A stretch of DNA of 58,877 nucleotides from Elusimicrobia bacterium GWF2_62_30 (lineage in GTDB: Bacteria > Elusimicrobiota > Elusimicrobia > Elusimicrobiales > UBA9959), in the NCBI GenBank assembly GCA_001799995.1, contig MGUK01000058.1, positions 1-58,877 of the forward strand, read 5' to 3'. The notes under the pieces were generated by a model. It was not told where the DNA came from. It saw nothing but the letters and a program-made list of their open reading frames with translations, and made no database searches. How positions within the stretch are numbered: position 1 is the stretch's first letter; every line of letters starts with the position of its first letter. Shown piece after piece: positions 7,723 through 11,064 of this stretch. A program made the position numbers and the translations under genes.

Positions 7723-8046
7723 TCAGGCCCGGCGGCAGCGCAGCAGCCTTCCCAGAATATTATAAGCGAGCCCCACAGGCCATTTTTTAAGCGGGTTGCG
7801 GGAGAGCACGCGCCCTTTCACCCCGGCCCAGGGCACGCGGTGCGGCTCGAGCAGGCCCGCGTCGTCGCCGATAAGGGGCCCTGCGCTGTCCGCGGCAACC
7901 ACCCTGTGCAGCAGGAGGCCGTCCCCATGTGAATATACCACGCAGTCACCGGGACGCACCGCAGCCCCGCTTTGGATCAGGACTATCTCTCCCGCCCGGA
8001 AAAGCGGCAGCATGCTGCTGCCTTCCAGTTTTACGGCCTGTATCAT
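7723..8046 (-). CDS. S24/S26-family signal-peptidase-like serine protease (small, S26B-type)
   Basis: This is a compact signal peptidase I-like protein of 107 residues. Seen: the nucleophile motif GSSMLP (Ser11); the GDCVVY strand; LLLHRVV with His47, in the position where the SipW/Sec11 (S26B) subgroup uses His instead of Lys; and a GDD segment at 60-62 that fits the family's acidic box. No clear N-terminal membrane anchor precedes the Ser, unlike housekeeping LepB, so it may act in the cytoplasm or be peripherally bound by its C-terminal hydrophobic stretch. It lies 22 bases after the 45-residue peptide gene. In context it is a candidate leader protease for that peptide (inference). Confidence 0.75.
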   Translation of the reverse strand: MIQAVKLEGSSMLPLFRAGEIVLIQSGAAVRPGDCVVYSHGDGLLLHRVVAADSAGPLIGDDAGLLEPHRVPWAGVKGRVLSRNPLKKWPVGLAYNILGRLLRCRRA

Positions 8047-8068
8047 CGGTATTTTCTCCGCAAGGCGG

Positions 8069-8206
8069 TCAGGAGAATTTTTTAATCGACTTGCAGGCCA
8101 GCTGGCCGGTAGGCCCGGCTATGCATTTGCCGCAGGCCAGCGCGGCGGTCTCGAACACTTTTTCGCTCTTTATGGCGGGTTTCGAATATGGTTTTTTCTT
8201 TTTCAT
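8069..8206 (-). CDS. 45-residue RiPP-like precursor peptide with three cysteines and C-terminal Ser
   Basis: This small gene has an ATG at 8206-8204 overlapping the PqqD stop codon (ATGA) and a TGA at 8071-8069. Its product begins MKKKKPYSKPAIKSEKVFET and continues AALACGKC, with a third Cys at 38 and the end KSIKKFS. Seen: Tyr7-x-x-Pro10-x-Ile12 matches the YxxPxL leader motif that PqqD-like/RRE proteins bind in lasso-peptide systems. Thr20 is followed by a Gly/Ala/Cys-containing stretch. Cys occupy 25, 28 and 38, there is no Asp or Glu after Glu19, and the last residue is Ser. The lack of an acidic residue in the putative core argues against a lasso ring. It lies between PqqD and an S26 peptidase with translational coupling. 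Calling it a modified-peptide precursor is an inference, but the leader match and context are strong. Confidence 0.75.
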   Translation of the reverse strand: MKKKKPYSKPAIKSEKVFETAALACGKCIAGPTGQLACKSIKKFS

Positions 8207-8457
8207 GTTATCAGACCTTTGGCCTCCAGGGTGCTTAAAAAAGCGGCCGTATCCGCGGCCGCCTCCCGCTCCGGGACCTCGAATTCTTCCGCCAGCCGCG
8301 AAGCTATCTTCTCCCGGGCCACGCCCCGCTTCAGGCAGTTCCAGATGAAAGTGCCGGCAGGGTTCAGGGAATGCAGCGTTTGTTCTTCTATGTCCACGAC
8401 GTAAAGTTCCCCGGCCAGTTCCCGCGCGGCAAGTTTTTCTTTGAATTTGACGTTCAT
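8203..8457 (-). CDS. PqqD-family RiPP recognition element protein
   Basis: This is a stand-alone RRE, the peptide-chaperone fold that holds a precursor's leader for its modifying enzymes. Seen: 84 residues; the PqqD-type pattern VVDIEEQTLHSLNPAGTFIW followed by two helices ending in EVPEREAAADTAAFLSTLEAKGLI, matching PqqD/lasso B1 proteins in length and layout. Its start overlaps the kinase stop by 4 bases, and its stop overlaps the start of the 45-residue peptide by 4 bases, so the three are translationally coupled. There is no pqqA, C or E homologue nearby, so it is not a PQQ biosynthesis gene. Its likely partner is the adjacent peptide. Confidence 0.85.
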   Translation of the reverse strand: MNVKFKEKLAARELAGELYVVDIEEQTLHSLNPAGTFIWNCLKRGVAREKIASRLAEEFEVPEREAAADTAAFLSTLEAKGLIT

Positions 8458-9245
8458 ACTCCCACCAGCTCCGTGAACGAATCGTTCTTTTTGGCGAAGC
8501 GCAGCTCCCCGGAATTCCTGGTCGCCGCCAGCTCGGCCGCCAGGGAAAGCATAAGGGCCGCCGTCTCCGCGTCTTTCGCGAAATTCATGGAGCAGCGCAG
8601 CAGGAGCCCCAGCGCCCGCCCGCCCGGCAGCTCCCGCACCTGGTTGCCGCCGGCCTTAGCGAGCTTGTAGACGCCGCCCAGGTCGAAGCGCCTGTTCTCG
8701 CCGGGGCGGCGCATCTCGCCCCAGAAGGGCGAGCCCCAGGCGCGGAACCTGCCGCCCGCCTTCCTGACCGGCACCAGTTCGTCGCTCAGCAGAAAATGTG
8801 CCCGCGCGGCCAGCTTCGAGAGCGTGGATTTGCCGGCTCCGGACCTGCCGGGAAAAAGGTAGGCCTTGCCGTTCCTGGCGAAGGAGGCGGCGTGCAGCAG
8901 CAGCCCGCCTTTGCGCGGCAGCAGCCAGCTGTAAAAGCAGCGCAGGAAAGAATCCAAGGCCTGCTCCCGCGGCGCGCACTTAAGCGTCCCGCGCCCGCTC
9001 TGCAGGTCGAGAACGCAGTCGAAATCCCCGCGTTTCAGGCTCAGCACGCCGCGCTCTTCGCTCACCGCCGGCCTGAAGGGCGCCTGGGCGCCGCGGATGG
9101 AAGACACCGCAAAGCGGTAAAGCGGCCGGCCGGAGCCGCTAAAATTTTTATAGCGGCGCGCCGCGAGCCCGCAAAACCCTGCGTCCGGGAAATCGAAGGC
9201 GGCCGCAAGGCCGGCCGTCGCCAACACAAGGGTTTTACTCGTCAT
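8454..9245 (-). CDS. HPr-kinase-like (HprK/PadeK-type) ATP-binding protein
   Basis: This is a 263-residue protein of the HPr kinase/PEP-carboxykinase-like fold found with PqqD proteins. Seen: GLLLHAAS with His118; a P-loop GRSGAGKS at 133-140, matching the GxSGxGKS form of HprK; and LLSDELVPV with acidic residues at 155-156, the probable Walker B. It lacks the N-terminal domain of true HprK and no HPr gene is present. In the paeninodin-type lasso clusters such kinases phosphorylate the precursor's C-terminal Ser (established for PadeK/ThcoK). The neighbouring peptide here also ends in Ser. I chose the start at 9245 because it overlaps the upstream stop (TGATG); an earlier in-frame ATG lies inside the pilin gene. 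Confidence 0.75.
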   Translation of the reverse strand: MTSKTLVLATAGLAAAFDFPDAGFCGLAARRYKNFSGSGRPLYRFAVSSIRGAQAPFRPAVSEERGVLSLKRGDFDCVLDLQSGRGTLKCAPREQALDSFLRCFYSWLLPRKGGLLLHAASFARNGKAYLFPGRSGAGKSTLSKLAARAHFLLSDELVPVRKAGGRFRAWGSPFWGEMRRPGENRRFDLGGVYKLAKAGGNQVRELPGGRALGLLLRCSMNFAKDAETAALMLSLAAELAATRNSGELRFAKKNDSFTELVGV

Positions 9246-10558
9246 CAGGGAAGCGCCGCCGGCCACACAGTGGTGGTGTCCTGCCAGGACTGCCGGATAA
9301 GCACCACGTTGGTGGTCATGACGTTGGACGCCACGTCGGGATCGTAGTAGATCTTGCAATTGGAGTTGGAACTGATGTTGGCGTTGCCATCGACCACGAT
9401 GGACCCGTGCAGCAGGTCGGAACTGCCGCCGCCGTTGGGCAGCGTAAGGTCGCCGCCCACGTACATGAAACCGTGTATGGCGGGGCTTATGCCTTTTGTT
9501 ATGCCGCTGGCCCGGTAGCTGTTATTGATGTTGCCGAAGCAGACCGGCGTAGCGGCCAGGGCGGGGTCGTAGTCGGTGGTGTAATGCGTCCAGGGGGTAC
9601 CGTCACTGCCGCAATATTGCTTCCAGGCCGCCGGCGGGATAGTTGCGTTATAGGAAGCGATCGTGCGCTGATTGCCGTTAGAGAAAGTGAGGTTGCCCCT
9701 GACTATGATATTGCCGGCAACGGCCTGTTTGAAGTCGCTCCAATTGCCCGTAACGTAATACGTCTGTCCGCCGGTAGAGTTGCAATAATTGGGCCCGACT
9801 TTATCCGTGAAGTTGTTCTTGTCGTAGCTGCCGTTCTTGTAATACGCGTTCCCGCAGGCGTCGTTGCCGGCGGCTATGGCCGAACTCTTATAAGCCTCGA
9901 AATCCAGCACCGGCATGGGCGGGAGCTTGGTGTAGTAGGAATGCCACCACCAGCACTTCGGAGAATCGCAATTGGGAGGCGAGGCGCCGTTAGTGTCCAC
10001 GTAGGAGGCCCCGTTCTTTATACCAGCCGCGCTCCAGTAGGAGGGATACTTTTTACTGTACATATTCACTTCTTTCGGGCTGGAAACGGCGCCCCATTCC
10101 ACGTCTATATTGTTGCCGCTCATGGCGATGCCTTTGGCCGCCGCGATGCTGATGTCGCTCAGGACGGCGTTGCCGTAAACGACCTTCAAAGCGCGCGTTT
10201 CCTTGTTCTGCTTGTCGCGGCCTATGGCCGTGATGGTCACCTGCTGGGTAAGCGGCCCGCTGGTGATGGAAATGGCATAGGTACCGCTGAGGATATCGCT
10301 GTAGCCGGTGTCGAAACGGTAGCCCGCCTGGGTCTGTCCGTTCTTAAGCGCGGTCCAGGTGCTGGTGGATTCCACTATCTTCTGATAGGCCCGGTCCACG
10401 GCGGCTTCGGCCAGCTGGAAGGCGTTGGTGTTCTGGGTCTCCTTCATGCTCCATTTGGATTCGTTCTGGACGTACTTCACCATGGCCGGGATGAGGATCG
10501 CCAGCACCACCAGCAGGGCTATTACGCCCACCATTATCTGCCCGTTCCTGTTTTTCAT
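9245..10558 (-). CDS. PilX-like type IV pilus/secretion-associated protein
   Basis: This is a 437-residue protein with a single N-terminal membrane helix (GQIMVGVIALLVVLAILIP) followed by a helical KETQNTNAFQLAEAAVDRA segment. That layout is characteristic of PilX/PulK-like minor pilins, in which the 'QLAEAA' stretch packs into the pilus core. The C-terminal 300 residues are rich in Asn, Gly, Ser, Tyr and paired Cys, and look like an extracellular beta-rich domain (repeated GNI/GNL/GDL turns). A classical prepilin Gly-Phe-Thr-Leu-x-Glu motif is absent, as in some PilX relatives. Its start overlaps the upstream pseudopilin stop (TGATG), and its stop overlaps the kinase start in the same way, so it is coupled on both sides. 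Precise pilus role unknown. Confidence 0.65.
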   Translation of the reverse strand: MKNRNGQIMVGVIALLVVLAILIPAMVKYVQNESKWSMKETQNTNAFQLAEAAVDRAYQKIVESTSTWTALKNGQTQAGYRFDTGYSDILSGTYAISITSGPLTQQVTITAIGRDKQNKETRALKVVYGNAVLSDISIAAAKGIAMSGNNIDVEWGAVSSPKEVNMYSKKYPSYWSAAGIKNGASYVDTNGASPPNCDSPKCWWWHSYYTKLPPMPVLDFEAYKSSAIAAGNDACGNAYYKNGSYDKNNFTDKVGPNYCNSTGGQTYYVTGNWSDFKQAVAGNIIVRGNLTFSNGNQRTIASYNATIPPAAWKQYCGSDGTPWTHYTTDYDPALAATPVCFGNINNSYRASGITKGISPAIHGFMYVGGDLTLPNGGGSSDLLHGSIVVDGNANISSNSNCKIYYDPDVASNVMTTNVVLIRQSWQDTTTVWPAALP

Positions 10559-11064
10559 CAGTTCATTATCCTCACTTTCTGGATGGACAGCTGCAGCGCC
10601 TTTTTCCCGCCGCGGTAGGTGGGCGACTGCATGGTCATGGCCACGGAGATGATGCTGACATCGTCGGTCCTGGGGTAGGTAAAAGCGATATAAGCGAGGT
10701 TGGACGACAGGAGCGTAGTTTTTCCGGCGGTGCTCATATAAAGGTCCTTCCCACTCTGGTAGAACTGCATCGTAGCGGTAGCCCCGGCGGAATTAGTATA
10801 GCTGAACTGCACGCGCGAGGAGGGAGGCTGGCCGGTAACCTGGTCGATGACCACCGTCCCGCTCTGGGCCTGGCGGGTGAACCTGTTTATCATGGAAAGG
10901 GAGGTCCTGACGTCGCGCTGTATATTGTAGCGCGCCGAAGTCATCCGCCAGAAATTGGTCATCTGCATCAGCAGGGGAGAAGCGACACCGACGACCGTGC
11001 CCAGGATGGCCACGGTCATCATCACCTCCACAAGCGTATACCCCCTTTTCTTTTTAGCTACCAT
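10558..11064 (-). CDS. Prepilin-type pseudopilin (PilW/PulJ-like)
   Basis: This is a minor pseudopilin of 168 residues. Seen: a basic N-terminus ending in KKKRG, then YTLVEVMMTVAILGTVVGV, a class III prepilin signal with the cleavage Gly and Glu at +5 of the mature protein, and a long hydrophobic helix. The C-terminal domain contains the MQ/QFYQSGKDLYMS-type beta strands seen in PilW/GspJ-like proteins. It overlaps the larger upstream pseudopilin by 7 bases and the PilX-like gene by one base. It needs a prepilin peptidase and assembly ATPase, which must be encoded elsewhere because none is in this window. Confidence 0.8.
   Translation of the reverse strand: MVAKKKRGYTLVEVMMTVAILGTVVGVASPLLMQMTNFWRMTSARYNIQRDVRTSLSMINRFTRQAQSGTVVIDQVTGQPPSSRVQFSYTNSAGATATMQFYQSGKDLYMSTAGKTTLLSSNLAYIAFTYPRTDDVSIISVAMTMQSPTYRGGKKALQLSIQKVRIMN

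Follow-up and report, generated by a model that had tools for sequence, protein, structure and literature searches.

A near-invariant small peptide encoded with PqqD, kinase, S26-type protease and radical SAM genes in Elusimicrobiota

A 45-residue peptide encoded in a draft genome of an Elusimicrobia bacterium belongs to a conserved set of genes for an HprK-like kinase, a PqqD-family protein, the peptide itself, an S26-type protease and a radical SAM enzyme. The window analysed here, a 58,877-nucleotide stretch that is the entire contig C58 of that genome (2.91 Mb, 84% complete), shows every member of the set except the radical SAM gene. Together these genes probably form a pathway dedicated to maturing this single conserved peptide, with steps performed by PqqD, the radical SAM enzyme, the kinase and the S26 protease.

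The peptide and its neighbours in the window

The minus strand of the window carries, in order, three pilin-type genes, the kinase, PqqD, the peptide, the S26-type protease and an EamA transporter gene (Table 1). The first-pass annotation of this DNA had described the four central genes on one strand at these positions, 4-base ATGA overlaps at the kinase/PqqD and PqqD/peptide junctions, and Y7, P10, I12 and cysteines 25, 28 and 38 in the peptide, all of which proved correct, as did its statement that the cassette in the window adjoins no lasso cyclase, B2 protease, radical SAM or YcaO gene. The upstream gene (10558-9245) overlaps the kinase by 1 base, and the protease starts 22 bases past the peptide. 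The 850-residue pilin-type protein also gave a sub-threshold lamin-tail-type match. An apparent pilin–kinase gene fusion in one relative was discarded as an artefact of a run of unknown bases.

Table 1. Positions, strand and basis of the features in the window
Feature	Position	Strand	Basis or remark
HprK/PEPCK-fold kinase, predicted peptide kinase, 263 aa	8454..9245	-	ATG start
PqqD-family protein, predicted leader binder, 84 aa	8203..8457	-	PF05402
Precursor peptide, 45 residues, MKKKKPYSKPAIKSEKVFETAALACGKCIAGPTGQLACKSIKKFS	8069..8206	-	Conserved, coding-like, motifs
Predicted core, 21 residues, Cys25 to Ser45	8072..8134	-	Small -3/-1 residues and S26-related protease
S26B-like protease, small, 107 aa, Ser11/His47	7723..8046	-	PF00717
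Pilin-type gene, PilX-like by position only	9245-10558	-	Upstream of kinase
Pilin-type gene	10558-11064	-	N_methyl motif over cut-off
Pilin-type gene, 850 aa	11058-13610	-	N_methyl over cut-off, CarboxypepD_reg repeats

The peptide has no match at E <= 1 to any Pfam or NCBIfam model. However short, the frame is a real gene and not a chance one, because strong matches (E <= 4e-17, 66-89% identity) occur in 24 of 60 relatives, the window's own genome excluded, and because its substitutions are coding-like: relative to the window, 29 homologues of 45 amino acids differ at codon positions 1/2/3 in 228/174/559 cases, with 385 synonymous versus 305 non-synonymous codons. The frame is conserved where pqqD and the kinase are kept, with one exception, G026 (63% complete), in which both genes are present and the peptide was not found downstream of PqqD. 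PqqD identity in relatives is mostly 28-45% (63 and 67% in two near relatives); judged by identity, PqqD has diverged more than the precursor it accompanies.

Twenty columns are invariant among 26 aligned peptides. In a 48-row set comprising the window and 47 named loci, Y7, K9, P10, E19, A22, L23, A24, C25, K27, C28, C38 and S45 never change, position 14 always bears a hydroxyl (Thr/Ser, 48/48), and the core contains no conserved Tyr or Glu. The records of the 47 loci are labelled Elusimicrobia, Elusimicrobiota, Endomicrobia or kin, apart from four that say 'bacterium' and one Armatimonadota. Because these loci were retrieved via patterns from AALACGKC and K[TS]EK[VI]FET, the search itself accounts for part of the conservation within those stretches; the patterns do not cover Ser45, Cys38, Tyr7 or Pro10. 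Of 340 Elusimicrobiota genomes, 54 gave the peptide in a profile search that used no patterns; among the places read in 20 of these, all eight that were new to the set have CxKC, the third Cys and a Ser at the end. With a second phylum included, YxxP and the three core Cys are present at 69/69 loci, and CxKC and the C-terminal Ser at 68/69 (L163 and L222 are one locus, so 70 rows count as 69 loci). L227 is the exception; its genome has three copies of the peptide, and this one ends in Tyr and, having CGMC, also lacks the Lys of CxKC. The residue preceding S45 is of ten kinds in the 48-row set and of 12 kinds over the 69 loci. The PqqD-linked, RiPP-like precursor proposed at first pass is thus upheld, with Tyr7, Pro10 and the cysteines conserved and maturation genes alongside, whereas the variable tail proposed with it is contradicted by a core that is as conserved as the leader up to its last residue. 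With so little change in the core across two phyla, we regard the product as a probable functional component of the cell, be it structural, signalling or cofactor-like, and not as a diversifying antimicrobial.

The radical SAM gene and cassette make-up in relatives

Within the 47 loci, PqqD is found at 45, S26 at 45 (a 46th is fused to the giant gene at L168), the kinase at 41, and all four maturation genes at 38. At 43 of the 47, the peptide has a radical SAM/SPASM gene no more than about 2.5 kb away, and three of the four genomes without an adjoining copy carry one elsewhere. The signature of a radical SAM RiPP cassette (CxxxCxxC and SPASM beside a precursor) is therefore a property of the family at these 43 loci and not of the window, and the original description of a minimal type without radical SAM is not supported. 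What stands of that interpretation is the PqqD-linked precursor, its conserved residues and the S26 protease as likely leader peptidase.

The usual order in the relatives listed is pilins, kinase, PqqD, peptide, S26, radical SAM/SPASM, Rrf2 regulator and giant secreted protein. Distant members (Endomicrobia and others) have an HD-domain gene, confirmed by scan in one of them, followed by kinase, PqqD, radical SAM, peptide, S26 and often a giant. At least one of three pilin profiles matches in 25/47 loci. The pieces absent at L129, L149, L163 and L172 sit elsewhere in the respective genomes. In G031 (L129), one other contig holds the radical SAM, Rrf2 and giant genes, and in the genome of L172 one other contig holds those for kinase, PqqD and radical SAM. 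The genome of L149 has the kinase at another place, and that of L163 (labelled Armatimonadota) has the kinase with PqqD on one contig and the radical SAM on another. In the window genome, a radical SAM of this family was not found (best 167 bits, against 331-415 for members), nor was an Rrf2 orthologue (best 34 bits) or a giant protein, and all three were likewise not found in the near relative G004 (locus L128). An assembly gap in a repeat-rich block and true loss would both fit the missing radical SAM; as none of the three genes was found in either genome, the pathway may no longer work in the branch that includes the window. Another radical SAM protein in the window genome, on contig C8 (L179:1405-3934), adjoins a protein with a SACHDACHSACH repeat tail.

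The closest solved structures to the radical SAM enzyme are SkfB (4e-36) and PqqE (6e-31), then CteB. One member scanned exceeds the cut-offs of both PF04055 and PF13186; among the best 25 of its 66 NCBIfam matches none reaches the cut-off, and the top match is PqqE (125.3/381 bits). This kinship with SkfB, PqqE and CteB, together with the Cys-rich core and, at the distant loci L152, L168, L169 and L170, genes for ABC transporters (judged by eye to be of the dipeptide type) some 5-9 kb upstream, might indicate a sactipeptide-kind radical SAM antimicrobial. However, the core varies little across two phyla, and reading the other listed loci by eye showed neither exporter nor immunity genes next to the cassette; we regard an antimicrobial of this kind as very improbable.

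The conserved cysteines would also suit a miniprotein with metal or redox activity: cleavage would expose an N-terminal Cys, CxKC...C would bind a metal or cluster, and the other genes would load it or control its quality. The three core Cys are present in 70/70 rows and CxKC in 69/70, an Rrf2-type regulator occurs at 26/47 loci and also at L189 and L190, and the S26 protein weakly resembles the Ni-SOD maturation protease model. That last score, 17.4 of 63.25 bits, is far under the cut-off, however; none of the nine loci ordered kinase, PqqD, radical SAM, peptide showed Rrf2; and such a miniprotein would leave the radical SAM enzyme and the terminal Ser unexplained. We therefore judge a miniprotein unlikely.

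In the phylum of G063 (record label Armatimonadota), the peptide occurs in 11 of 291 genomes, at 14 places. Eight of the 14 adjoin PqqD, and at seven of these eight an S24/S26-type gene with a weak score lies upstream, ahead of PqqD; one such gene exceeds the Peptidase_S24 cut-off. The stretches read showed no PqqD at the other six places and no kinase next to the peptide. The radical SAM search in this phylum covered G063 only. PQQ-type beta-propellers stand beside peptide copies at L163:6369-8688, L232:9460-11967 and L234:5371-10568 (raw count), and two of these three copies also adjoin DUF1559 pseudopilins.

In a further reading, the peptide would be broken down to a small redox molecule, as a cofactor precursor similar to those of PQQ or mycofactocin. 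Consistent with this reading are the near-invariant core, PqqD together with a radical SAM enzyme whose top NCBIfam match is PqqE, and the beta-propellers adjoining 3 of the 14 second-phylum places (two by Pfam, one by eye; a raw count). Against it, the core has no conserved Tyr or Glu, unlike PqqA, the entire 20-23 residue core is kept, last residue included, and no dedicated oxidoreductase was noticed at the loci read. A cofactor precursor is accordingly a doubtful reading, a little less credible to us than the miniprotein.

A second PqqD cassette was observed in this same family of genomes, at L088:9189-12466 (similar at L089-L092), comprising radical SAM, PqqD, a FabD-like acyltransferase and a weak HprK-type protein. 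It also encodes a 34-residue peptide ending ...KYQKPQIKSHGKISEVASAFKP or close (called in three loci), and the surrounding region resembles polysaccharide genes by eye.

Predicted maturation steps and possible role

From gene content, conservation and co-occurrence, we infer the following chemical steps for the probable pathway. PqqD scores 62.3 bits against PF05402 (cut-off 23.4), which places it in the RiPP recognition element family. PqqD-family proteins such as PqqD and PadeB1 bind precursor or leader peptides, as described in PMC10906245 and PMC5067487, and the PqqD described here is predicted to be the leader-binding protein for this peptide, gripping its basic leader via Y-x-x-P. The radical SAM/SPASM enzyme, which in the window genome would be encoded in the unassembled part or have been lost, would modify the Cys-rich core (CxKC...C), most likely by Cys thioether or related crosslinks.

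The kinase lies below the cut-off of every NCBIfam model among those listed, with HprK-type matches that are sub-threshold only (TIGR04352/TIGR04249). Its AF2 model (pLDDT 94.7) predicts the fold: Foldseek returned ATP-PEPCK first (E 1.2e-7) and HprK/P next (E 5.5e-5). H118, GxSGAGKS, SDE and FWGE are conserved. According to PMC10368454, lasso-peptide kinases keep H-G-G-G-K-S-D-D, and the PqqD-like B1 greatly accelerates phosphorylation of the lasso precursor. Here H118, G138, K139, S140 and D155 of that motif are present in 41/41 kinases and G133 and G136 in 40/41, and the last acidic place is Glu instead of Asp in 41/41. Because Ser ends the peptide at all loci except L227, we take the C-terminal Ser as the target on which this kinase would put a phosphate. 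PMC10368454 also states that the lasso phosphorylations known before it were all at the C-terminal Ser of the precursor, and that the kinase BsfK targets Ser3, not the C-terminus; such kinases are thus not tied to the last residue, and Thr/Ser14 of the leader could be an alternative target.

Co-occurrence of kinase and peptide was assessed in 62 genomes chosen non-randomly from earlier listings, counting matches of at least 100 bits and ignoring relatedness. In Elusimicrobiota, the kinase is present in 6/8 peptide-positive versus 4/23 peptide-negative genomes, and in the second phylum in 11/11 versus 0/20. It was not found in peptide-positive G034 and G035, the contigs of which start shortly upstream of PqqD, and occurs without the peptide in G026, G001, G142 and G332. 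Weaker matches in G362 (36.5 bits) and G003 (37.2 bits) were uncounted, and the match in G525 is split across two frames (114.6 and 57.3 bits).

The protease scores 29.4 bits against Peptidase_S24 (PF00717; cut-off 23.3); its best solved relatives are SEC11A/C, and no membrane helix was seen by eye ahead of the catalytic part. Position 11 is Ser in 40/45 relatives and Cys in 5/45, and His47 is present in 46/46. The S26 proteins in which the predicted catalytic Ser is Cys are those of L165, L171, L172, L173 and L174 (for example, GGCMRP). Ahead of the first Cys of the peptide (70 rows), position -3 is A (68), S or T, position -2 is L and position -1 is A or G. Because the residues at -3 and -1 are small, an S26 protease fits as the cutter, and we infer cleavage after A-L-[A/G], before Cys25, which would leave a 20-23 residue core with Cys first and (phospho)Ser last. 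The S26 gene directly follows the peptide in both Elusimicrobiota gene orders, and its assignment at first pass as the likely leader peptidase agrees with the A-L-[AG] ahead of the first Cys. In a lipobox a bulky residue is expected at -3; ALAC was rejected as one, as its bulky residue is at -2 and no hydrophobic segment was seen ahead of it by eye.

The protease might instead serve the exported giant or pilin proteins, a reading that is compatible with the rest of the pathway. At L152, L168 and L170 a single open frame encodes both the S26 domain and the giant. This fused S26 precedes the hydrophobic export segment, however, and is therefore probably cytosolic, and the relocation of other parts at L129 and L172 has left S26 directly behind the peptide. 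That the giants or pilins are its substrates is thus possible, although on the unlikely side.

Across 340 Elusimicrobiota genomes, either of two giant N-terminal domains is present in 39/54 peptide-positive and 3/286 peptide-negative genomes, which points to a long-standing partnership without indicating a mechanism; common descent exaggerates the contrast. Giant and peptide are on different contigs in G144, G146, G147 and G335, and 15 peptide-positive genomes, the window's included, show neither giant. The giant13 domain was counted in 18 genomes, on a match of at least 290 bits over model positions about 1-300; 12 further genomes with partial or weak matches only were left uncounted. Open frames with giant18 span 8,832-10,482 aa in nine genomes; those of G326 and G327 measure 10,482 and 10,468 aa. 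No fold was accepted for the giant N-terminal domain: the pLDDT was only 75, and Foldseek returned BcsB and other beta-sandwich proteins with query TM < 0.3. As for its final role, the product of the pathway may serve exported giant or pilus-linked proteins. Tentatively, the phosphorylated, radical-SAM-modified peptide would be no weapon but a fixed part, preserved in both phyla, that binds to giant exported repeat proteins and pilus-like filaments or regulates them; such a product would represent a new functional class among ribosomal peptides.

Relation to known systems

The individual parts are of known kinds; their combination (PqqD, radical SAM, HprK-like kinase, S26 protease and a fixed core) was not found described in the open-access literature searched. 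Carriage by a virus or plasmid was set aside, as a viral scan gave 0 relatives and a plasmid search gave none. RiPP pathways are usually mined for variable antibiotics; here, in uncultured phyla, a precursor out-conserves its PqqD and carries a terminal Ser alongside an HprK-like kinase. The cassette leads to the predictions that terminal Ser phosphorylation occurs outside lasso peptides and that a small S26 protease acts as a RiPP leader peptidase, and it offers a handle on the role of the Elusimicrobiota giant secreted proteins.

SynChlorMet (SCM) is alike in having ScmC, a weak match to the kinase, the PqqD-related ScmD and the radical SAM/SPASM proteins ScmE and ScmF, but the scores are far under the cut-offs (34/125 bits for ScmC, 23.8/100 for ScmD and 84.3/400 for ScmE). 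The HPr-rel-A system (TIGR04352/TIGR04353) pairs, by model names, an HprK-related kinase with a PqqD-family chaperone, and here too both scores fall under the cut-off (kinase 37/200 bits, PqqD 25.7/35 bits). PQQ biosynthesis (PqqA/D/E) shares the small peptide, PqqD and a SPASM radical SAM; however, PqqD (18.5/46 bits) and the radical SAM of a relative against PqqE (125.3/381 bits) are both under cut-off, the core lacks the conserved Glu/Tyr, and the kinase and S26 are extra. SkfB-type sactipeptide maturation resembles the cassette in its SPASM radical SAM and Cys-rich core, and differs from it in that PqqD is here a separate protein, the core is nearly invariant and a kinase is present; core conservation likewise disfavours a variable-tail bacteriocin.

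The lasso clusters (paeninodin, bsf) share PqqD/B1, a YxxPx[L/I]-type leader, the HprK-like kinase motif apart from its last Asp (here Glu) and, in the paeninodin type, the C-terminal Ser. In a lasso ring, the first core residue is joined with an Asp/Glu at position 7-9. The predicted core in the window, CGKCIAGPTGQLACKSIKKFS, is free of Asp and Glu, and the aligned cores share no conserved Asp or Glu. No lasso cyclase or B2 protease was found among eight window genes scanned, and none was noticed by eye in the homologous loci listed. With neither cyclase nor ring acceptor, a lasso peptide was rejected: in place of the lasso cyclase and B2, the family has a radical SAM enzyme and an S26 protease, together with a conserved core.
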